Part shown: piece by piece, positions 1 to 9,945 of the stretch
Numbering within the stretch: position 1 is the stretch's first letter
Layout of the letters: every line of letters starts with the position of its first letter
Origin: Lysobacter antibioticus HS124
GTDB taxonomy: Bacteria > Pseudomonadota > Gammaproteobacteria > Xanthomonadales > Xanthomonadaceae
DNA: 48,834 nucleotides
NCBI RefSeq assembly: GCF_000336385.2
Contig: NZ_HG424465.1
Span: forward strand, 1 to 48,834
Direction of reading: 5' to 3'
Translations under genes and position numbers: made by a program
The notes under the pieces: generated by a model
The model's input: the letters and a program-made list of their open reading frames with translations, nothing else
Told to the model about the DNA's origin: nothing
Database searches by the model: none

Positions 1-1
1 G

Positions 2-79
2 CTGCGTCTTCGCCCCATGGGCCTTACCAGCTTCGTGCGGGAACTGGAGACGCACGAAGGGATCGAGGAATCCGCATGA
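2..79 (+). CDS. C-terminal end of an upstream gene (partial)
   Basis: An open frame enters from the left edge and ends in TGA at 77-79. It encodes about 25 residues ending RPMGLTSFVRELETHE-GIEESA. Its stop overlaps the ATG of the next gene in an ATGA arrangement, so the two are probably translationally coupled. The next gene belongs to a small family that usually follows large serine recombinases. This tail may therefore be the end of a recombinase or of an associated mobile-element protein, but the fragment is too short to name. Confidence 0.5.
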   Translation: MRLRPMGLTSFVRELETHEGIEESA

Positions 80-534
80 GCAAGTTCAAGGTAGAGATCG
101 CCACCGGTAGCGACGGCTCTATCGCTTTCGATGTCCCGCTTCGGATCACGAAGCGCGGCTACCGCAAGCTCGTCCAGCTCGTCGGGCCGGAAGCCGCCGA
201 GCGACCTTGGGACGCCCAGCCTACCGCCCTCCAGCGTGCGTTGGGTCGAGCGGAACGCTGGCGCCGAATGCTGGAGTCCGGCGAGGCCACGTCCATCAAC
301 GATCTAGCAGCGAGGGAGGGCACTGACTTCAGCTACATCGCCAGACTGCTCAACCTCACAACAATGGCGCCGCAGCTCGTAGCGGCGATCCTAGAAGACA
401 CGCTTCCCAGCGGAACCACCGTCAATGATTTGGCCATCAACCCGCCTCTGCTATGGACTGAACAGGTGTCGAGGCTGGAACTTAACAGAGGGCCGTTGCG
501 CAACCAGCGGTTATCGTCGCCTAAGACGGTTTAG
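76..534 (+). CDS. Serine-recombinase-associated small HTH protein
   Basis: The product has 152 residues. The N-terminal part (VPLRITKRGYRKLV) and the middle part (ALGRAERWRRMLESG, then SINDLAAREGTDFSYIARLL) match the pattern of the small protein encoded directly after many large serine recombinases. Those proteins carry a helix-turn-helix like that of KorB/ParB-type proteins, and they end in a motif like the PPLLWTEQ seen here. The role in the family is not well established; control of or partnership with the recombinase is likely. The gene overlaps its upstream neighbour by 4 bp. It marks the left edge of the window as mobile DNA. Family call by eye. Confidence 0.6.
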   Translation: MSKFKVEIATGSDGSIAFDVPLRITKRGYRKLVQLVGPEAAERPWDAQPTALQRALGRAERWRRMLESGEATSINDLAAREGTDFSYIARLLNLTTMAPQLVAAILEDTLPSGTTVNDLAINPPLLWTEQVSRLELNRGPLRNQRLSSPKTV

Positions 535-713
535 GAGTGATCGCGTAGCGCTGTAACACTTGGTCCAAGGCAAAGTGAATCGCCCAAGATTTCGCAGACA
601 TACCGTGCGGGCCCGGCGAGAAGTTCACATTACCCCTCGCTGACCGCTACTGGGCCTTACTGGCAAGCCGAAACTTACGTCAGCGCTCATATCACTAAAA
701 ACACCTACTGCGA

Positions 714-1275
714 TCAAAAACCAGAGTTGCCATGCTGCGAAAAAACGGCGCAACCGGGACTAATTGGCCTCAGCGCGAGAAAAACAGGTGCTGGCGAATT
801 GGCCAAGAGACTGCGAGTGGTCCCACCAAACACCATCCCCATGACGCTCGGGTGTCCGTAAGCTCCAGCCACGACCAGGTCGGTGCGGCTCTCCGCAGCG
901 TAGGCGCCGATTGCTTGACCTGCGTCGCCTACGGACGCACTGCAGCGAACGATCTGGGTTTCGACGCCCTGCCGGCGTAAGTGCGCGCGGATCAGCGCGT
1001 CGTGAGTGTGCGGCTAAAAGCAGCCGTCTTCAACTACCAGAATCTCCGCCACGCGCATACGCTGCAGCCAAGGGATAGCATCGTAGACCGCGCGCGTGGC
1101 CTCCCGACTAGCATTCCAAGCGATCAGCGCCCGCTCTATTGCAATCGCTCCCGAGCCGGCCGGTAGCGACAGGATCGGGCGGCCGCCGCCGGCGGCCAGT
1201 TCCCCGAACAAGCGCTTCGAGTACAGTGCGCCGGGCAGGTCAGCCTCCAGCACCGCCAAGCCGCGCAGGTCGCGC
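714..1275 (-). pseudogene. Universal stress protein remnant, in-frame stop
   Basis: On the minus strand, conceptual translation gives the second half of a UspA-type protein: LFGELAAGGGRPILSLPAGS, then ALIAWNASREATRAVYDAIP, then VVEDGCF followed by TAG (1014-1016). The same frame continues after the stop with LIRAHLRRQGVET, TDLVVAGAYGHPSVMGMVFG and GTTRSLLANSPAPVF, and closes with TGA near 714. The G-x2-G-x9-G(S/T) nucleotide-loop pattern is recognisable. It resembles the intact UspA protein at 41638-42441. The N-terminal half is missing: recognisable homology stops about where the aminotransferase gene ends (1280). It is therefore a truncated and interrupted gene at the junction of the biosynthetic operon. 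Confidence 0.75.
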
Positions 1276-1279
1276 GACC

Positions 1280-3718
1280 TCAGCTCGCCGAAGATCCGCC
1301 CGGAGCGTCCTCCAGCCGCGCGCACTCGATATTCAGCAAGCACTTCGCAAACAAGTAGAAGCAGTACGCATCGCGAAAGGTCGACCCCAGTCCGAACGAC
1401 ACCCGGATGGCGCCGCAGTTTCCCTTGTTGAGGATGTTTTCGTCGAAGGCCTTGCAGTCGAGGATCTTTTCCGTTTTGTCAAGTTCGCAGTGCTCTGCGC
1501 CCGCCGTCGTGTACGTGGCCTGCTGCACAGCACCCAAGTTGCAGAAGCATCCGTTACGCACGACGATGCCGAAGGATTCGGCGGCCCGCTTGACGAGCGC
1601 ATGCGGAAACACGGCGTTGTAGCAATCAAAGAAATTCAGCATGACGGTAGCGCCCTTGTGTTCCGCCGCAGGGCCGTAGATACGGCAAAGGGGGGTCTGG
1701 CTCTTGATGTCGTGGTGAAGTTCCTGCAGCCGCGCCTCAAGCCACCGCGCCAGCGCCCCTGATCGCGCGCCGATGCGCTCGAGCCCGATCTGGGACACGA
1801 ACTGGAATCCCTGGGCGATGGCGTCGAAGGAGGCATAGTTCGGCGTGCCAATCTCAAACCGTTTTCCGTCTTCGCGATGCAGCAGCCGGTCGGTGGGCGA
1901 CCAGGGTCCTGAGTAGTAGCACACCGAACCTCCCGCGAACGACGGCGGGGTCAGCTCGCGCAGCGCGGACCTGCGGGCGATGAGGCAGCCGGCCCCGGTC
2001 GGATGGCCGAAGATCTTGTAGAAAGAGATCGCGATGAAATCCGGCCGATGCACCGAACAATTCAGCCGGGCCTGGGGCACGAACGCGGCCGCATCGCACA
2101 GCACCATCGCCCCGCGCTCCTGCGCGAGCCCGATCCACTTCAAGTCGTGGCGGGCGCCCGTCGCATTGGACTGCGCCGGGTATGCCAACAAGTGCCGCCG
2201 CCCCGGAGCGAGCCGGTCCAACGAACGCCGCATCGAGCTTTCGAGAATCCGAAGCTCGTTGTCGAGCGGAATGTATTTCACCGACGCGCCCTTGGCTCTC
2301 GCATACTCGCGCAGGCCGTGAACCGACGTGTGGTTGTCCTTGGTGAGCAGGACCTGCGAGCCGCTTCCGAACGGGAACGACTCCGCCACCAGCCGGATCG
2401 CCCCGCTGGCGTTGGGCGTGAAAATGATTTCGTACTCGTCCGGCGCGCAGCGGAAGAACCGGTAGATTTCCTCCCGAGCCTTCTCATGCGCCGCATCGGA
2501 CGACTTCGAGCCGCTGTGCGGGTTGCCGAGAATGCTGTTCTTGAGCACCCGATAATCCTGTTCGAGCAGGCTGTCCGGAGCGATCGTGCCGCCGACATGA
2601 TCCAGGTAGGTGGCCTGCAGGGCGTCCAGCCGCGAGAACTCGCGCTTGCGCAGCGCTTCGGCCTCGGCATCCGGGTAGGCCGGATGTTCGGCCAGGAAGT
2701 CCCGCTTCATCATGCGATAAGGCCGCAGCAAGCGCTCCGCCTGCGGCGACAGCGGGCTGTCCGCGTCGCTGCCGATGAGCGCCGGAGCCATTCGGCAAAA
2801 GTCGCTCAGTTCGGAAAAATCGGGTGGCTGACTCGGGGTGGCGGCCCTCTTGCAAGCCTCATCGACCTCGCCGCGCAGAAGCCAGGCCTTGACCTGGTAG
2901 TTCCGGCTGGGAACCTGCACGTGGAATTCCTGCAGCATCGTGTCCAAGTAGGCGTCGCGCGTGGGCGCGTCGCACTGGTTGAACTCCTCAAGCAAGATGC
3001 AGGCATTGAAGAGGAATTCGCGAGTGTCGAGGTCGTCCAGGAAGAAGGAGAGCGCGCGCGAGGTCGCCACTTCGCCGACGCCTCGACTCAGCCCTTCTAG
3101 ATCGAAGGCGCGGGTGATAGCCGAGGGGTCGGCTAAGCTCAGCGCCGCGCCCATGATGGCCGATGGCGTACCAAAGTGCTTCTGCGATTGTCTCAGGGCC
3201 AGATCGAACAACTCGTTGTACTGAAAAACGGTGCCGTAGATCTTTCCGCCCGGACGCAGCACGCGCTTAAACTCGCGGGCGACCCGGACCTTGTCTGGGG
3301 GAAACATCAATCCGAAGCCGCAGACGACGACATCGAAACTGTCGTCCGCAAACGGCAGATCCGCCATATCCACGTCGGAATGGAAGGCGACGTTGCGCTT
3401 AAGCTCCGCGCTGACCGCCTGCTTGGCCATATCGATGGCGATCTTCGACAAGTCCGTCGCGACGAGCCGCAGGTTCAGCGGCTTGGCCAAGTCTTCGTAG
3501 AGGGTGGTGGTAATGCGGCCCGTCCCGCAAGCGACCTCAAGGATGCTCGCTGGAGGAGCGTCCGGACGGATGTCCTTGCGAATCTCCTGAACGAGTAGCT
3601 CCCCGTAGGGCTTGAAGAGCCGAGGACCCAAGACGCGCTCATAGAACTCCATGAACGTACTCAGGGACCACTTCTGCTCCGACACCGTCTTACACTGTTG
3701 CTGCGCAGTCTTGTGCAT
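1280..3718 (-). CDS. SAM methyltransferase fused to MoCo-sulfurase-like class V aminotransferase
   Basis: The product has 812 residues and two enzymes in one chain. Residues about 20-200 form a class I SAM methyltransferase, with motif I ILEVACGTGR near 60-68, an acidic motif II (LVATDLS) and LRPGGKIYG. Residues about 350-790 form a class V PLP enzyme related to cysteine desulfurases and molybdenum-cofactor sulfurases: TYLDHVGG, NPHSGSKSSD, FTPNASGA, PLP-binding LCDAAAF (Asp542) and SFYKIFGH (Lys568). The sulfurase-type NGCFCNLG motif gives candidate persulfide cysteines at 724 and 726. I chose ATG 3718 because AGGAA lies 8 nt upstream; the ATG at 3742 has no ribosome site. It is last in the operon, 89 bp after the NRPS gene. 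Sulfur transfer coupled to S-, N- or O-methylation is inference. Confidence 0.75.
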   Translation of the reverse strand: MHKTAQQQCKTVSEQKWSLSTFMEFYERVLGPRLFKPYGELLVQEIRKDIRPDAPPASILEVACGTGRITTTLYEDLAKPLNLRLVATDLSKIAIDMAKQAVSAELKRNVAFHSDVDMADLPFADDSFDVVVCGFGLMFPPDKVRVAREFKRVLRPGGKIYGTVFQYNELFDLALRQSQKHFGTPSAIMGAALSLADPSAITRAFDLEGLSRGVGEVATSRALSFFLDDLDTREFLFNACILLEEFNQCDAPTRDAYLDTMLQEFHVQVPSRNYQVKAWLLRGEVDEACKRAATPSQPPDFSELSDFCRMAPALIGSDADSPLSPQAERLLRPYRMMKRDFLAEHPAYPDAEAEALRKREFSRLDALQATYLDHVGGTIAPDSLLEQDYRVLKNSILGNPHSGSKSSDAAHEKAREEIYRFFRCAPDEYEIIFTPNASGAIRLVAESFPFGSGSQVLLTKDNHTSVHGLREYARAKGASVKYIPLDNELRILESSMRRSLDRLAPGRRHLLAYPAQSNATGARHDLKWIGLAQERGAMVLCDAAAFVPQARLNCSVHRPDFIAISFYKIFGHPTGAGCLIARRSALRELTPPSFAGGSVCYYSGPWSPTDRLLHREDGKRFEIGTPNYASFDAIAQGFQFVSQIGLERIGARSGALARWLEARLQELHHDIKSQTPLCRIYGPAAEHKGATVMLNFFDCYNAVFPHALVKRAAESFGIVVRNGCFCNLGAVQQATYTTAGAEHCELDKTEKILDCKAFDENILNKGNCGAIRVSFGLGSTFRDAYCFYLFAKCLLNIECARLEDAPGGSSAS

Positions 3719-3807
3719 TGTGGATTCCTGATGAGCCGGCATTAGTAGTGGCCCGCAGATTTACCGGGCATCGCCAGACGTCTGATCAGCGCAACGCGGC
3801 CAGCCGA

Positions 3808-6807
3808 CTATACCGCCACCGAAGATTCGGCCCGCTCGCGAACCCCGATGGATTTCTCGAGGTAGCGCCGAAGCTCGGGCTCGTCGAACGCCGGAGGGAG
3901 AATCCCACTGCCTTCGAGCAGGGCCGATGTGTTGTCGTGATTCCAGAGGTAGGTGTGCTGGTACATCTCGATGATGCAGTTGTCCTTGTGCATCGGATCC
4001 CGGAACAGATTTAGTACCGGATAGAGCGGGGTCTTCGGGTCGTTCATCCAGCAGGCTCGCCATTGGCGGAAAGGGACAACCTGAAATTCAAAGCCGAAGT
4101 AGCGCGCCATCAAGTCGAAGAACTGCTTCAAGGACACGTTGGCCTCTCCGGAATGAATCAGGTTGAACTTCTGCCCCAGGCAGGATGCCTGTCGACCGAT
4201 ATGGGCGATCGCCTTGGTCATGTAGTCAACCGAACTTAAACCTTCGCGAAGTTCATGCAGGTCCGGAACGAGACCGAGTGACAGACACGTCTTCACCAGC
4301 CGCCCCCACCATTGGTAACTGGCGCTCAGTCCGGTTTGGCTGTGATACGTGGCGTAACCGAGCCGAAACGTAGCCAACGGCAGACCGCGGGTCTCGGCCA
4401 GATCGGCGATCTTTTCCATGACCCATTTGCTTTTAACGTAGCCGATGTCGGCGCAAACGGCGTCCAGATTTTGGTCTATATCGTCGACTTCCGCGGCGAC
4501 GTCGCGCCCCGTGATCCAGTACCCCCAGCTGTAAACGGAAATGGTTGACAGCAGCATCAGCGCTTTCGTGCTTTTTCTGGCGGCGAAGCGAATGATGTTG
4601 ACGAGTCCATCGACGTTGTCGCGCTTCATCGCCGCATAAGGCTTGATGAAGTTGACCGAACTAGCCGAGTGGTAGATGACCTCCACGTCGCGGCACAACG
4701 CTTCGTAGTCATTCGCCTGAAGGCCAAAACCGGGCGAGGCGATGTCGCCCGGATGCGCCCGGACCCGCGCCAAGTCCGAAGGAGAGATCGGTACCTTGTA
4801 CTCTTCGACTTTTTCACGGATCCGCTGCATGGCGCCGGCCGCTGTGCGAGCGCGCACGATGCAGTGGACAATGGCGCGCGTGGTGGCGAGCAGTTCGGCG
4901 AGCAGATGAATGCCGACGAAACCCGTAGCTCCGGTAAGAACTACGTGACTGGGGCTGATCAATCGATCCGCGTCGAACGGCGCGGAAAAAACGATATCGT
5001 CCGGCAGCGTTGCATCGCGTCGCAGCATCGCAGGCGAAATGTAGTCGGAGACGTCATCGATCGCATCTTGCCGTTGCCGAATTTCCGCGGCCAGGGACTC
5101 GGCGGTTGGCCGGTTGTAGATGTCGGTAATGCGCAAAGCGAGCCCGAGTTCCTTCGACAAGGCCGCGATCACCTCAGCGGCCAACATAGAATGTCCACCG
5201 ATGTCAAAAAAATTGTCGTTGCCTTGAAAATCGGAGTGCTCGAGGGCACCTTGAAACGCGATCATAACGGCCCGTTCGACGCGATCTTCAACCTCCTCGA
5301 ACGTTCGCACCGGCGCGATCGTGCGCGCGAAGTCGGCCATGAGCGCGCCTTTGTCCGTCTTTCCGTTGGAGTTCAACGGGAAGCGATCCAGAACCGCGTA
5401 ATGCCCCGGCACCATATACTCGGGGAGTACAGCGCGTGCACCTTCACGAACGCCGGCGATGAACTCGCGATGCGGGACTTCGTCGTTACTGCGGATCAGA
5501 AAGGCGACCAATTCCTTCGGGCTTCCGTCCGTTGGTGCAGTGGCCGATACGCTGACTTGACGAACGCCAGGCAGCCTGGCCAGAACCACTTCGACCTCGC
5601 TGGGTTCGACCAAGTGCCCGCGGATCTTGACCTGCTCATCGACACGGCCGAGGAACTGGATGGATTGGTCCGGCAGCCTACGGCCCAGATCGCCCGTCCG
5701 ATAGATCCGTTGACCGGCCTCGAACGGGTGCGGTGGGAACTTCTCGGCCGTGAGTCGATGGTTATGAAGATAGCCCCGCGCCAAGCAATCGCCGGAGATG
5801 CAGATTTCACCGACATCCCCCGCCGGAACCTCGCGCATGGCCTTGTCCAAGATCCATACATTGGCGCCTTCCACTGGCGTGCCGATCGAAGGTTCGCGAC
5901 CTAACGACGCGCTGGGCACCAAATGGTACGTACACCAGATGGTGGCTTCGGTCGGGCCGTAGTAATCCACCAACGCAAAATGAATGTGATCCGTCACCAC
6001 AGGATTGAGCTTTTCGCCACCCGTAAACAAGTATTTCAGCGCAGAGGGCCGAGTGCTGTGCCGAACAACCTCCGCGGCCATGACGGTTGGAACGAAGGCG
6101 TGGGTGATTTTCTCGCGGGCAATCCATTTCACCAGTTCGCAGGCGTCTCGTCGAATGTCGTCGTTCAGCAGATAGAGTCTCGATCCGGCGCACAGCGACG
6201 ACCAGATTTCCCAGTGCGCGACATCGAAGCCCAGCGCGGCCATGGACGTGGACCGACTTTGGTAGTTGACCTGAAAACGACGGTTGTGCCAGTCGATCAA
6301 CGCGGCCACCGAATGGTGTTCGACCGCAACGCCTTTTGGAACTCCGGTCGTCCCCGAGGTGAAGATGACGTACATCAGGTCGGCCGGAGAGGGAGAATAA
6401 AGCGGTACCGGCGACGCGGTCGCGTTACGTCTCAGCGTGTCGATATCGACGACTTGGACGCCCGGATCTGTACGCGAGACGTCCGGTGCGGTCGTCAACA
6501 GCCAAGCCGCGCGGCTTTGCTCGATGATGTAGGCCTTCCGCGCCTTGGGGTAAGCGCGCTCGATCGGAACGTAGGCCGCCCCGGACTTAACGATCCCCAG
6601 CAGCCCAATAATGAAGTCCGTCGACCGCGTCGCCTCGATGGGCACCAAGTCGCCGGCACCAATGCCTTGACCGACGAGGAATGCCGCAACGGCGTCGCTG
6701 TATCGATCGAGTTCGCCATAAGTCAATGTCTCATGGTCGTCGACTATGGCAATGCGATCGCAATCTTGGCGGCGCACCGCGTCCAGAACCGTGCTTTGCC
6801 CGTTCAT
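3808..6807 (-). CDS. Free-standing NRPS: adenylation-thiolation-reductase
   Basis: The product is about 999 residues. The adenylation domain (about 1-490) shows A3 FTSGTTGVPKG, A5 YYGPTEATIW, A7 YRTGDLGRR, A8 GRVDEQVKIRGH and the A10 lysine in NSNGKTDK. The carrier domain has FFDIGGHSM, with phosphopantetheine Ser540. The terminal domain is a thioester reductase with the NADPH loop VLTGATGFVGIHL (about 623-635) and catalytic Tyr790/Lys794. There is no condensation domain, so the expected chemistry is activation and reduction of one acid to an aldehyde or alcohol, as in Lys2-type enzymes. The specificity pocket read by eye is D-V-W-F-F-G-Y-I-W-K; Asp at its first position suggests an alpha-amino acid. 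GGGGGAG precedes ATG 6807; ATG 6834 is an alternative start. Confidence 0.85.
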   Translation of the reverse strand: MNGQSTVLDAVRRQDCDRIAIVDDHETLTYGELDRYSDAVAAFLVGQGIGAGDLVPIEATRSTDFIIGLLGIVKSGAAYVPIERAYPKARKAYIIEQSRAAWLLTTAPDVSRTDPGVQVVDIDTLRRNATASPVPLYSPSPADLMYVIFTSGTTGVPKGVAVEHHSVAALIDWHNRRFQVNYQSRSTSMAALGFDVAHWEIWSSLCAGSRLYLLNDDIRRDACELVKWIAREKITHAFVPTVMAAEVVRHSTRPSALKYLFTGGEKLNPVVTDHIHFALVDYYGPTEATIWCTYHLVPSASLGREPSIGTPVEGANVWILDKAMREVPAGDVGEICISGDCLARGYLHNHRLTAEKFPPHPFEAGQRIYRTGDLGRRLPDQSIQFLGRVDEQVKIRGHLVEPSEVEVVLARLPGVRQVSVSATAPTDGSPKELVAFLIRSNDEVPHREFIAGVREGARAVLPEYMVPGHYAVLDRFPLNSNGKTDKGALMADFARTIAPVRTFEEVEDRVERAVMIAFQGALEHSDFQGNDNFFDIGGHSMLAAEVIAALSKELGLALRITDIYNRPTAESLAAEIRQRQDAIDDVSDYISPAMLRRDATLPDDIVFSAPFDADRLISPSHVVLTGATGFVGIHLLAELLATTRAIVHCIVRARTAAGAMQRIREKVEEYKVPISPSDLARVRAHPGDIASPGFGLQANDYEALCRDVEVIYHSASSVNFIKPYAAMKRDNVDGLVNIIRFAARKSTKALMLLSTISVYSWGYWITGRDVAAEVDDIDQNLDAVCADIGYVKSKWVMEKIADLAETRGLPLATFRLGYATYHSQTGLSASYQWWGRLVKTCLSLGLVPDLHELREGLSSVDYMTKAIAHIGRQASCLGQKFNLIHSGEANVSLKQFFDLMARYFGFEFQVVPFRQWRACWMNDPKTPLYPVLNLFRDPMHKDNCIIEMYQHTYLWNHDNTSALLEGSGILPPAFDEPELRRYLEKSIGVRERAESSVAV

Positions 6808-6862
6808 AGCTCCCCCTGATGATTGTGGCTCCATGGTGACTAGGCCTCGACCATTCGCATCC

Positions 6863-8242
6863 TCAGAACGCAAGATCGTGGAAGACGCCCGCCGGATCGT
6901 GGCGTTGTTTCAGTTCCCTAAGACGCTGCCAGGCCGCTTCGGAAAAGCAGCGCGCCACCTCCCGCGAGCGATACTCGAGGTCGAATTCGTTGATATAGCA
7001 GTGCGAGGCGATGGGCTGTAGGTCGTCGTACAACGATCGGAGCCATTTCTGGTTGACTTCGTCTTCGTTCGCATCGCTCCATCGAGCGTACGTAGAAAAG
7101 TACCAGCGGCCTCGGGCTGAGAATGCGCCATCCGGAAGCGACGGCGAGCCGCGCCAAATGAAGATCGGGAGCGTGGCCAACGAGGGCAAACTCGGTAGAT
7201 GCGCGATCAGTATCTCCGCCGCACGTTCCGCGTGATCGGTCAGGATGTTGTCGGCAAGATACCGTCCTGCGCCGAACGTCGCGTCGCCGTGATCGTGCAA
7301 CGCGGTGAAGCCTGTGGCATGTTCTTCGCTGGCCGGAGCCAGGGCCCACGGCAACAGTCGATCAATGATCGACGCATGCAAATCGCTGGCGGTCGTGATG
7401 CTCTCGGCGAACGCTAAAGTGGTCAGCGCCACCTCGCGGGGTGGCGCTTGCTGAGCCACGCTTTCATCGGAAGCAATCACCGCAAGCATTACTTGCAGCC
7501 GAGGATCGGGCTCGGTGCGTTCCACCGATCTCAGGGTGTCGGCCAGTCTGGTCAGCGGAAGACGCAAACTGCGCGCCGTTATCGCGGCCGGTGCGGCATG
7601 GCATTCGAGCTCGAACGATACAGCGGCAAAAAAAACCATCGGCCCACCGCCTCGGGCGGCCCAGAACAAGTCGGAGTTTTCCTCGGCGCTGGCACGACGC
7701 AGCACCCCGTCGGCGGTCACCACGTCGAGCGCTTTGATGTGGAAGGCGCTCATCGGCCCCCACTGGCCGAAGTTGATGCCCAATCCGCCCCCCAGCAAGA
7801 AGCCGCCCAGGCCGACGGTACCGCTGTGGCCGGTGGCGAAACCCAGGCCATAGGGTGCGAGCGCACGGCTCAGATCGCGACTGGTAACTCCGGGGCCGAC
7901 GATAGCGCGCTTACGCTGCGAATCGATCGTCAACGCGCGCAGCGCCGACAGATCGAGAAGCACTCCGTTCCGACGAATGAAGGCGTTGGCGAAGCTATGG
8001 CCTCCGCTGCGGAGTGCCACAGCAAGTCCATGCTCGCGGCAAGTCCGTATGACTGCGATCATGTCATCGACCGAACGGGGGCGAACGATGTAGTCGGGAC
8101 GTCGATCAACGTCTCGTTCATTCCAGCGTGCCCGGCATAACCAGGCGTCATAGCCGGGTTCGCTCCGTCGACGAACGGACCCGCTGGCGCCAAGAGCCAA
8201 CATCTGAACGGCTGATCGCAGCTGATTCAGTGGACTGGACAT
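6863..8242 (-). CDS. FAD-linked oxidase, berberine-bridge type
   Basis: The product has 459 residues. The FAD_binding_4 domain includes PDYIVRPRSVDDM and RSGGHSFANAF, in which His82 is the expected 8-alpha-histidyl FAD link. The glycine stretch GLGGFLLGGGLGI follows. In bicovalent family members a cysteine precedes this stretch; here the matching position is Ser140 (GHSGTVG), so FAD is probably held through histidine only. The C-terminal BBE module (INEFDLEYRS to KQRHDPAGVFHDLAF) is complete. Such enzymes oxidise alcohols, amines or ring carbons using oxygen. The gene starts 2 bp after the upstream gene and ends 55 bp before the NRPS start, so co-transcription is very likely. Confidence 0.85.
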   Translation of the reverse strand: MSSPLNQLRSAVQMLALGASGSVRRRSEPGYDAWLCRARWNERDVDRRPDYIVRPRSVDDMIAVIRTCREHGLAVALRSGGHSFANAFIRRNGVLLDLSALRALTIDSQRKRAIVGPGVTSRDLSRALAPYGLGFATGHSGTVGLGGFLLGGGLGINFGQWGPMSAFHIKALDVVTADGVLRRASAEENSDLFWAARGGGPMVFFAAVSFELECHAAPAAITARSLRLPLTRLADTLRSVERTEPDPRLQVMLAVIASDESVAQQAPPREVALTTLAFAESITTASDLHASIIDRLLPWALAPASEEHATGFTALHDHGDATFGAGRYLADNILTDHAERAAEILIAHLPSLPSLATLPIFIWRGSPSLPDGAFSARGRWYFSTYARWSDANEDEVNQKWLRSLYDDLQPIASHCYINEFDLEYRSREVARCFSEAAWQRLRELKQRHDPAGVFHDLAF

Positions 8243-8244
8243 CC

Positions 8245-8859
8245 CTATCCCCTTTTGGCGGCGCCTTCGCTGAGGTCGGTGTCTAGAGGACTCGCAATCA
8301 AAAACACCGCGGACGCCCTCGGCACGGAGCGGACCATAGGCGGAAAACCACTGTTAAACAGTGATAGCTCGATCAGTACATCGGCAGAGAATCTGTGAGT
8401 TTCGGTGAGCGAACAAAGGGTTTGAATCGCCCAGATCGTTGTAGACGACGGCTGTTGCTGCCGATCTGACATCCAGTTGAAGTAGTCCGTTCCTCCTAGG
8501 ATCTGCCCCTCCGAGAATGCCTCGCTTCCTTGCAAAGCGATTGATTCCATCGCGAATGTGATGGGGTCATCCAAGTCCTTTTGCAGCACCAGCTCGTGAC
8601 CCAGCCCCAGATAGGTGAAGAACTGCTTGTCGCTAGAAAATTCAACCCCTGCTGCCTGTGCTGCGCCGTCGAAGAAACCGACGATGTAGCCCCGGACCCG
8701 TTCGCTCGCGAGGATGACTTCGAAATTATCAACAGACCGGCAGAGAACAAGATTCAGTTCCAACACGGGGCTCGCGGCCGCAACGACTTGCCTAGCATGG
8801 TCAGAGATCCCCCATCCCGACTGTTTTTCCTGAGTTTTTCCCTTCAACCATCCGAACAT
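8245..8859 (-). CDS. Hypothetical protein, first gene of the biosynthetic operon
   Basis: The product has 204 residues, starts MFGWLKGK and is soluble with no signal peptide or membrane segment. I do not recognise the family. I chose ATG 8859 because GGAGGGG lies immediately upstream; a longer frame to 8922 has no such site. The body is mixed alpha/beta, with segments such as GYIVGFFDGAAQAAG and SSDKQFFTYLGLGHELVL. It is separated from the oxidase gene by only 2 bp, so it is the promoter-proximal member of the operon. It may be a partner or accessory protein, but nothing in the sequence shows a function. Confidence 0.65.
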   Translation of the reverse strand: MFGWLKGKTQEKQSGWGISDHARQVVAAASPVLELNLVLCRSVDNFEVILASERVRGYIVGFFDGAAQAAGVEFSSDKQFFTYLGLGHELVLQKDLDDPITFAMESIALQGSEAFSEGQILGGTDYFNWMSDRQQQPSSTTIWAIQTLCSLTETHRFSADVLIELSLFNSGFPPMVRSVPRASAVFLIASPLDTDLSEGAAKRG

Positions 8860-8970
8860 GCCCCCTCCAACACTGAACAGACTATTCGGCATAGAACGCG
8901 AGCGGTGAGATCGGCAGGCCATTTAACTCGACGGGCACCCAACTAGGGGGCGAGCTAGTCTTCGCCTAAC

Positions 8971-8998
8971 ACCCAACACCCAACACCCAACACCCAAC
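8971..8998. repeat. Heptamer tandem repeat ACCCAAC x4
   Basis: Four perfect head-to-tail copies of ACCCAAC are visible, preceded by a partial copy (TAAC, 8967-8970). The repeat lies exactly between the start side of the biosynthetic operon and the broken LuxR-type remnant. It is too short and spacer-free to be a CRISPR. Confidence 0.9.
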
Positions 8999-9115
8999 CG
9001 GCGGCCAACGCCCGTTGCAAGAGTTCGGCGCGGGTGCTGATGCCAAGCACTCCGGAATGCCCGGGTTCGCATCGTCTTTACCGAGTTGACCGAGATCCTC
9101 CGTTCCGCCCCGATC
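8999..9115 (-). pseudogene. LuxR-type HTH remnant, frameshifted
   Basis: Minus-strand translation gives ERRISVNSVKTMRTRAFR in one frame and then LGISTRAELLQRALAA in the next. Together they read as the C-terminal recognition helices of a LuxR/MalT-type HTH regulator. The frame changes near 9045-9050. Nothing convincing of the rest of the gene is visible upstream (9116-9200). The remnant abuts the heptamer repeat and marks the right-hand junction of the biosynthetic operon. Confidence 0.6.
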
Positions 9116-9201
9116 GCCGAGCGCTGCTGCCAGGGACAGACCTGCGGCGAACTTCCATCGCCGTGGCCGCTCGCCAACGGGCGCTACCCGCGTACGCGAT
9201 T

Positions 9202-9945
9202 TCATCGCGGGCCGGCCAACGCGATGGCGTCGGCGCCTGCAGGGAAATGGAACTGGTCCGTTTCGTCGTGGGCAGCGCGCCAGATCGCGTCAGCGACATC
9301 CAGCGGCTGCGTCGTCGCCCGCGGGTGGGCGAACGCCTCGAAGATCGGACGGGCGAAGTCCGCATAGGTCTGCGGTATCAGGCCGTTCATTCGCTCGGCG
9401 CCGTTTTCCGCGAAGCGCGTCGCCGGGCCATAGCCGGGTTCGACCAGCTTGACCCGGATGCCAAAGGCGCCGAGTTCGTGCGCCAGTGACCCCGTGAAAC
9501 CCTCGACTGCCGTCTTGCTGCCCGTGTAGGCCGCGGCGAGCGGCATGCTGGCCAGCGTGACGCTCGAGGTGACGTTGACGATCGCGCCCGACCGGCGCGC
9601 GCGCATCTGCGGGATGACGGCCTGGGTCACCGCCATGGTGCCGAACGTATTGGTGTCGAAGACCTCGCGCACCGTTTGCATCGGCGTGGCCTCGAAGGCA
9701 CCTACTACGCCGATGCCCGCATTGTTGACGAGCACGTCGATCTGGCCCGCCTCCGCGATAGCGCGCCCGATACTGCCGGCGTCGGTGACATCGAGCGCGA
9801 CTAGCTTGACCCGGTCGGATACGGGCAACAGGCCTGGGTTCGGCCGGCGCATGGTGGCGACGACATTCCATCCGCGATCGTGGAAGTAGCGGGCGGTTTC
9901 GAGGCCATAGCCGGAGGAACAACCGGTGATCAGTACCGTCTTCAT
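9202..9945 (-). CDS. Short-chain dehydrogenase/reductase
   Basis: The product is a classical SDR of 247 residues. It has the cofactor loop TGCSSGYG (7-14), an NNAG motif (74-77), the active-site serine region VNVTSSV and the Tyr140-x3-Lys144 pair in AYTGSK. MRR after the second strand suggests NADP(H), as in the family. ATG 9945 is preceded by GGAG at 8 nt. It is divergent from the AraC-type gene at 10043 across a 97-bp gap. This arrangement usually means the regulator controls the SDR. The substrate is unknown. Confidence 0.9.
   Translation of the reverse strand: MKTVLITGCSSGYGLETARYFHDRGWNVVATMRRPNPGLLPVSDRVKLVALDVTDAGSIGRAIAEAGQIDVLVNNAGIGVVGAFEATPMQTVREVFDTNTFGTMAVTQAVIPQMRARRSGAIVNVTSSVTLASMPLAAAYTGSKTAVEGFTGSLAHELGAFGIRVKLVEPGYGPATRFAENGAERMNGLIPQTYADFARPIFEAFAHPRATTQPLDVADAIWRAAHDETDQFHFPAGADAIALAGPR

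Follow-up and report, generated by a model that had tools for sequence, protein, structure and literature searches.

The DNA analysed here, called the window throughout, is a stretch of 48,834 nt from Lysobacter antibioticus HS124 (NZ_HG424465.1, positions 1 to 48,834). It is the start of a contig (C26) in a draft assembly of 183 contigs, and its left part carries a group of tightly spaced minus-strand genes which the original prediction had described as a four-gene operon. Three of these genes were confirmed (Table 1). They code for a flavin adenine dinucleotide (FAD)-binding oxidase, a nonribosomal peptide synthetase (NRPS) with adenylation, thiolation and reductase domains (A-T-R), and a fusion of an S-adenosylmethionine (SAM) methyltransferase to a class V pyridoxal phosphate (PLP) domain. 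The fourth open reading frame (ORF), at 8245–8922, did not stand, as it was found to be a chimera at a sequence junction (see below). Judged by the ORF ends, 2 bp separate this ORF from the oxidase, the oxidase and the A-T-R overlap by 11 bp, and 65 bp lie between the A-T-R and the fusion. Homologues suggested a start near residue 23 (6807) for the A-T-R and at Met9 (3718), as the likely start, for the fusion. All three genes appear to be under purifying selection (nonsynonymous divergence dN 0.05–0.45 versus synonymous divergence dS 0.42–2.3 in seven comparisons). None of the three codes for a phosphopantetheinyl transferase, a transporter or a regulator, so that the predicted lack of these functions holds for the reduced set.

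Table 1. Features of the window, with strand and the basis of each assignment.
Feature	Position	Strand	Basis or remark
Segment shared with a second genome of the species (G453)	1..8449		99.93% identity (5 mismatches, 1 gap); read as mobile or recently exchanged
Small ORF	76..534	+	Comparison with G453, where it directly follows a serine recombinase gene (L027 5092–6453)
Methyltransferase/cysteine-desulfurase-like (class V PLP) fusion, 820 aa	1280..3742	-	Pfam, NCBIfam, family alignments, PDB sequence matches to SufS
Class V PLP/desulfurase-like domain, residues 379–785	1388..2608	-	Aminotran_5, E 6.8e-43
Cys732 of NGCFCN (residues 730–735), persulfide cysteine candidate	1547..1549	-	Invariant in 13/13 fusion rows and 3 standalone relatives
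Lys576 (SFYKIFG), PLP lysine candidate	2015..2017	-	Invariant in 13/13 fusion rows and 3 standalone relatives
SAM-methyltransferase core, residues 67–166	3245..3544	-	Methyltransf_25, E 5.9e-19
Free-standing A-T-R NRPS, 1021 aa	3808..6873	-	AMP-binding, PP-binding, NAD_binding_4; ten-member alignment
Thioester-reductase domain, Pfam part	4207..4938	-	NAD_binding_4; TIGR01746 reaches residue 1007
Thiolation domain (GGHS serine)	5083..5238	-	PP-binding; motif
Adenylation domain, ten-residue code DVWFFGYIWK	5359..6771	-	Pfam; code from alignments
FAD-binding (VAO/BBE-type) oxidase, 459 aa	6863..8242	-	FAD_binding_4, E 1.3e-28; three-orthologue alignment
Chimeric ORF that spans the junction at about 8449, 225 aa; not a cluster gene	8245..8922	-	Comparison with G453

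The fusion protein agreed with the predicted methyltransferase joined to a class V domain with the motif NGCFCN, since both domains were matched by Pfam models and the PLP lysine and the motif cysteine were in place. The family alignment comprised 13 fusion rows from 12 loci including the window, one locus contributing two copies. Not only the two candidate catalytic residues but also Cys734, the second cysteine of GCFCN, was invariant in all these rows and in three standalone relatives. Eight more cysteines of the PLP part (432, 586, 608, 686, 707, 752, 763 and 776) were invariant in the 13 fusion rows; all of them except Cys432 were checked in the standalone relatives, where only Cys586 recurred, in one of the three. 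The best solved relatives of the PLP domain in a PDB sequence comparison were SufS-type cysteine desulfurases. The SufS subfamily model reached 127.4 bits, under its curated cut-off of 475.1, and the domain is classed as desulfurase-like, short of the subfamily cut-off. One standalone relative (genome G044, L016 5256–9109) is adjoined by a gene for sulfur transport and two for rhodaneses, with a protein kinase gene following, and these rhodanese and sulfur-transport neighbours fit a role in sulfur handling. For a defence function there were weak domain matches to SspA, DndA and mad2, with no search aimed at dndB-E or sspB-E partners.

By its motif, the PLP domain resembles molybdenum cofactor sulfurases. 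MOCOS and ABA3 likewise combine a class V PLP domain and a motif of the GCFCN type, a likeness that comes from the motif rather than from a sequence comparison. Unlike MOCOS and ABA3, the fusion had no MOSC domain (no Pfam match at E 0.1), and its methyltransferase flanks the PLP domain on the opposite side. Another parallel is the metallopterin-dependent ergothioneine synthase (MES) of Caldithrix abyssi, in which a desulfurase domain is reported to feed a module fused to it (PMC9516567). The fusion is like MES in that a PLP cysteine desulfurase(-like) domain is joined to a proposed sulfur-using module. It differs in that a SAM methyltransferase and the GCFCN motif stand in place of the metallopterin module and the NifS/IscS-like desulfurase, and no Pfam match to a metallopterin-binding module was found. 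By this analogy, the protein would be of a kind known from MES, in which a desulfurase is joined to the module using its product, and the variant with a methyltransferase would be a new one. As far as our limited literature search shows, the methyltransferase/PLP fusion is a new domain arrangement.

An AlphaFold model of the methyltransferase part (residues 20–320) had a mean predicted local distance difference test score (pLDDT) of 82.2, and Foldseek returned methyltransferase folds for it. The first 20 rows held GtmA (3), TmtA (2), OxaG (2, one of them the first row), RoqN, TTHA0223 (2), AtmM (3), RebM, JHAMT (3) and three others, with sequence identities of ≤26%. The domain thus resembles GtmA and TmtA in fold (5 of these 20 rows), but the identity to them was 15–19% and the other 15 rows, with OxaG first, were other methyltransferases. 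TmtA is called an S-methyltransferase in its PDB title, and GtmA has the same activity. The fold matches allow S-methylation without proving it.

The A-T-R is an enzyme of a known kind. The predicted free-standing NRPS without a condensation domain was borne out: adenylation, thiolation and reductase domains follow each other in the order of the minimal NRPS called ATRed, and no Pfam match to a condensation domain was present at E 0.1. TIGR01746 scored 305.6 bits (cut-off 213.35), and TIGR01733 was also above its cut-off. In an alignment of ten A-T-Rs from Lysobacter, Paraburkholderia, Burkholderia and Pseudomonas (44–82% identical), the residues of the adenylation pocket were almost fixed, with the code D[VI]W[FY]F[AG][YF][IVM][FW]K; the positions of this code are numbered after GrsA. 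Aromatic residues seem to fill the pocket, which leads us to expect an amino acid as small as Gly, Ala or Ser as substrate. For the idea of a glycine-betaine-reductase type adenylation domain with an aromatic cage, no paper was found in the limited literature search. Pyrazine makers have been reported among A-T-R proteins (PMC7586950; also PMC8658869), and PMC10979478 deals with a different architecture. ATRed of Xenorhabdus indica is such a protein and makes a pyrazine (PMC7586950). As described there, it shares with the A-T-R of the window the three domains on one protein, the lack of a condensation domain and the proposed release of an amino aldehyde. It differs by its proposed activation of Phe, whereas the code of the window suggests a small side chain, and the A-T-R of the window is accompanied by the oxidase and the fusion. 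In another genome with an A-T-R (G008), a PatG-like subtilase gene (L026 2625–4661) lies a few kb from the A-T-R gene.

The assignment of the third gene to the flavin oxidases was upheld by the FAD_binding_4 match; the C-terminal model of the berberine bridge enzyme (BBE) family reached 15.6 bits, under its cut-off of 20.6. The oxidase is like EncM and 6-hydroxy-D-nicotine oxidase in having FAD_binding_4 and the GGHS histidine. The match to EncM covered 191 residues only (E 2.6e-34), and a match to the FAD-binding oxidoreductase 9p1o extended over residues 20–455 (E 3.8e-30). The FAD-linking histidine (GGHS or GRGHS) was present in all three orthologues aligned. The position which we take to be that of the FAD-linking cysteine in BBE-type oxidases was Ser or Gly in this alignment, and the FAD of the oxidase would therefore be at most monocovalently bound.

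Comparison with G453 showed the right border of the segment that carries these genes. The first 8449 nt of the window, nearly identical between the two genomes, have a GC content of 61.0% versus 65.9% in the rest of the window, and the DNA beyond the junction is 97.9–98.2% identical to G453. In G453, a gene for a serine recombinase (Resolvase, Recombinase and Zn-ribbon domains) extends to just within the left end of the window sequence. We read window 1–8449 as a recently exchanged, mobile-looking island. In G453, about 10.25 kb follow until the match to the window is taken up again at 8446–8449. The first approximately 158 residues of ORF 8245–8922 belong in G453 to a frame ending 'QQQPIGLLRLFHEVS*', with its stop just past the junction, and the last 67 residues correspond to the sequence upstream of the oxidase, at a distance of about 10.25 kb. 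Because of this separate stop and the distance between the two parts, ORF 8245–8922 is a chimeric frame at a deletion or insertion junction, with an assembly join in the draft as a further possibility. Domain searches gave no family match for it. The additional DNA of G453 includes an hxs locus (L027 15848–19780), in which hxsA, hxsB and hxsC were above and an hxsD-like gene below the cut-off; HxsA has His-Xaa-Ser repeats, and HxsB and HxsC are radical SAM maturases. This DNA is largely missing from the assembly of the window, as a query of 10,301 bases gave 10 matches, the best over 246 bp at 91%.

The fusion gene was found in 6 of 395 genomes of the family and in 2 of 398 genomes of the phylum, each count including the own genome, and a search of 60 relatives gave four matches (own counted), with G044 matching only in the PLP domain. 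A pattern scan of one genome per species (84,980 species) matched 92 stretches, which led to 11 distinct fusion loci with identities of 63–89%; as one of two exact peptide patterns was demanded, this number is a lower bound. The loci belong to Lysobacter enzymogenes, two Myxococcus, Entomohabitans, two Pectobacterium, Paraburkholderia humisilvae, two Stenotrophomonas maltophilia, [Pseudomonas] hibiscicola and Luteimonas. Plasmid records gave two matches, neither covering the methyltransferase part. In a tree, the fusions of Lysobacter and Luteimonas grouped with those of Paraburkholderia, Myxococcus and Enterobacterales, and those of Stenotrophomonas, a genus that shares its family with Lysobacter, stood apart (100/100 split; the root serves the drawing only). 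The fusion occurs as a single gene with a patchy spread over scattered, unrelated bacteria, and the tree is most simply read as transfer from lineage to lineage.

We also compared the neighbours of the fusion at 14 loci, after removal of frames overlapping the fusion, as antisense frames within it otherwise swamp the comparison. No neighbour was common to most carriers. The window and L. enzymogenes share the A-T-R and a short-chain dehydrogenase (38%). A sigma-54 activator lies 2.3–4.3 kb from the fusion at one Lysobacter, the P. humisilvae and three Stenotrophomonas loci, and related pairs of histidine kinase and sigma-54 response regulator occur within about 5 kb in Lysobacter G007 (L013 12926–15399) and P. 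humisilvae (L049 4783–7539); this recurrence may be due to chance. Near the fusion, P. humisilvae and Luteimonas both have a 700–779-aa protein (33%), Pectobacterium and Luteimonas both have transporter-like proteins (27%), and one Stenotrophomonas shares with Luteimonas a cyclopropane-synthase-like methyltransferase together with another protein (32–37%). The remaining matches were weaker pairs and antisense frames.

Among the genomes searched, all three genes were present only in the species of the window, L. enzymogenes ATCC 29487 and P. humisilvae. The fusion-bearing genomes carry 15 handles for 14 distinct genomes (G357 and G817, which have the same 816,909-bp contig, are apparently one). 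The A-T-R was detected at E ≤ 1e-150 under three of these handles and in the genome of the window. The oxidase was detected at E ≤ 1e-20 in 4 of 17 genomes (the 15 handles, G008 and G000), namely G000, G453 (as two frames), G808 and G814, all of which also have the A-T-R and the fusion. At these thresholds, the oxidase was present among fusion-bearing genomes exactly where the A-T-R was; in addition, P. humisilvae (G814) has four weaker oxidases at 26–37%. Of 144 Paraburkholderia genomes, four had a member of the A-T-R family (E ≤ 1e-200) and one had the oxidase (E ≤ 1e-90), the one in which the pattern scan had found the fusion; as scoring was confined to the top candidates of each genome (at most 5 for the A-T-R and 11 for the oxidase), misses are possible.

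The arrangement of the genes varied between the lineages. At the loci compared, the A-T-R adjoins the fusion only in the species of the window and, divergently oriented, in L. enzymogenes. In P. humisilvae, the oxidase and the A-T-R are adjacent (65% and 71% identity) on a contig of 8,681 bp and the fusion is on another contig. The 8,681-bp contig has transposase genes at both ends (DDE_3 on the left, IS6/IS240-type on the right) and 135-nt arms on either side that are 79% complementary. In L. enzymogenes, the oxidase lies away from the fusion/A-T-R locus, in a tight operon (L066 8518–11915) of a methyltransferase, a GNAT/FemAB-like gene (PF13480) and the oxidase. This methyltransferase and the one located downstream of the A-T-R are 81% identical over 247 residues, a link between the two L. 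enzymogenes loci. As L. enzymogenes thus has, in addition to the same three genes, two related stand-alone methyltransferases and a GNAT/FemAB-like acyltransferase, the full pathway may exceed the set of the window. The claim that the genes travel together was upheld in so far as their linkage is seen by co-occurrence in three lineages. The neighbourhood comparison, which the original prediction had named beforehand as its refutation, went half against it, as the genes do not form a single conserved block and 12 of the 15 handles had no A-T-R at the threshold used. We concluded that a three-gene set is supported by co-occurrence but is not a conserved block. In agreement with the prediction that this gene set is not a described pathway, no such cluster was found in a limited, mainly open-access literature.

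Our preferred but tentative reading is that the three genes, carried by a segment that looks mobile, form a small set for biosynthesis, in which the fusion supplies cysteine sulfur and a methyl group. The A-T-R, with its observed domains and motifs, would load one small amino acid and free it as an amino aldehyde. The flavin oxidase would then oxidise or aromatise an imine or dimer derived from the aldehyde. By analogy with MES, the fusion most likely takes sulfur from cysteine and methylates an acceptor or the sulfur itself. The PLP on Lys576 would serve to free the sulfur of L-cysteine, Cys732 would take it up as a persulfide, and the methyltransferase domain would methylate the sulfur-bearing acceptor or the sulfur; in an alternative order, also suggested by analogy, a methylated acceptor would receive the sulfur. 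The heterocycle of the original prediction may be the product. The oxidase and the A-T-R would belong together as a unit, the fusion would spread on its own, and the two would have been joined in one operon in the species of the window. Should the fusion link the desulfuration of cysteine to methylation, it would offer a compact route to S-methyl or thio-heterocyclic metabolites. It would also be an easy handle for genome mining, as one gene that is >60% identical across phyla in the loci found. The pathway is likely one of separately moving parts, which stand together in one genome and apart in another and would escape mining methods that look for clusters. More speculative, and in our view unlikely, is the wider notion of a one-polypeptide sulfur-methyl enzyme (S-methyl or methylthio transfer) that exists as a single mobile gene in Myxococcota, Gammaproteobacteria and Betaproteobacteria and was recruited at least twice by an A-T-R/oxidase pathway; the limited literature search found no described precedent for such a module.

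Several observations weigh against a joint set. Under 12 of the 15 fusion-bearing handles (11 distinct genomes), neither the A-T-R nor the oxidase was detected at the thresholds given above, G008 has an A-T-R with neither oxidase nor fusion, and three further Paraburkholderia have an A-T-R (51–53% identical to the P. humisilvae enzyme) but no such oxidase. For the window compared with P. humisilvae, dS was 0.75 for the fusion and 2.3, near saturation as all values above 1, for the A-T-R and the oxidase, from which it follows that the fusion and the A-T-R/oxidase pair were probably not inherited as a unit. The sample for linkage is small, with three lineages, two of them in one genus. The oxidase frame of G453 is broken by one extra A in a homopolymer, which could be a sequencing error, and the AlphaFold model of the whole fusion was poor (pLDDT 64.7) and unfit for active-site geometry. 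It is quite conceivable that the fusion is self-sufficient, making for example a methylated sulfur compound from cysteine and SAM, that it merely rode along on the island, and that the oxidase and the A-T-R alone make a pyrazine-like or amino-alcohol product. The many carriers without an A-T-R, the lack of a neighbour common to most carriers, the difference in dS, the A-T-R of G008 and the presence of two tandem fusion copies in one Myxococcus genome (L044 7224–9656 and 10022–12454) all favour this explanation. So do the A-T-Rs of the three other Paraburkholderia and of three plasmid records, which had no adjoining fusion or oxidase in the stretches compared (the fusion was not sought genome-wide there). 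In favour of the joint set, the fusion meets the A-T-R independently and in a different arrangement in L. enzymogenes, and the oxidase was found, among the genomes searched, only together with both other genes.

It is rather improbable that the class V domain carries out another PLP reaction (C-S lyase, transamination or epimerisation) and that the cysteine motif was merely inherited. Class V folds are catalytically diverse, the SufS model matched far under its cut-off and no sulfur acceptor was identified. Nevertheless, the invariance of Lys576 and both GCFCN cysteines, the SufS-type desulfurases as best solved relatives and the standalone relative among rhodanese and sulfur-transport genes argue for sulfur chemistry. 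A four-gene operon with ORF 8245–8922 as a pathway gene, as its 2-bp gap to the oxidase might suggest, was rejected as highly improbable, since this ORF spans the junction, its two parts lie far apart in G453 and the N-terminal part has its own stop there.

A scan of window 500–9500 gave no sigma-70-like sites (2.3 in shuffled sequences) and 10 terminator-like sites (9.2 in shuffled sequences). No convincing sigma-54 promoter was seen 5' of the fusion at 15 start sites; the best site was equalled in 16 of 200 shuffles, and three sites had no core match. Just 3' of the fusion, window 762–1280 on the minus strand could be read by eye as a broken universal-stress-protein-like sequence, with no such Pfam match in ORF 1014–1343. 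In L056 (7790–8617), three 276-nt tandem repeats lie in an ORF that is open at the contig end and adjoins an IS6-like transposase. Window 8968–8998 consists of a perfect 7-bp tandem repeat, AACACCC, in 4.4 copies.

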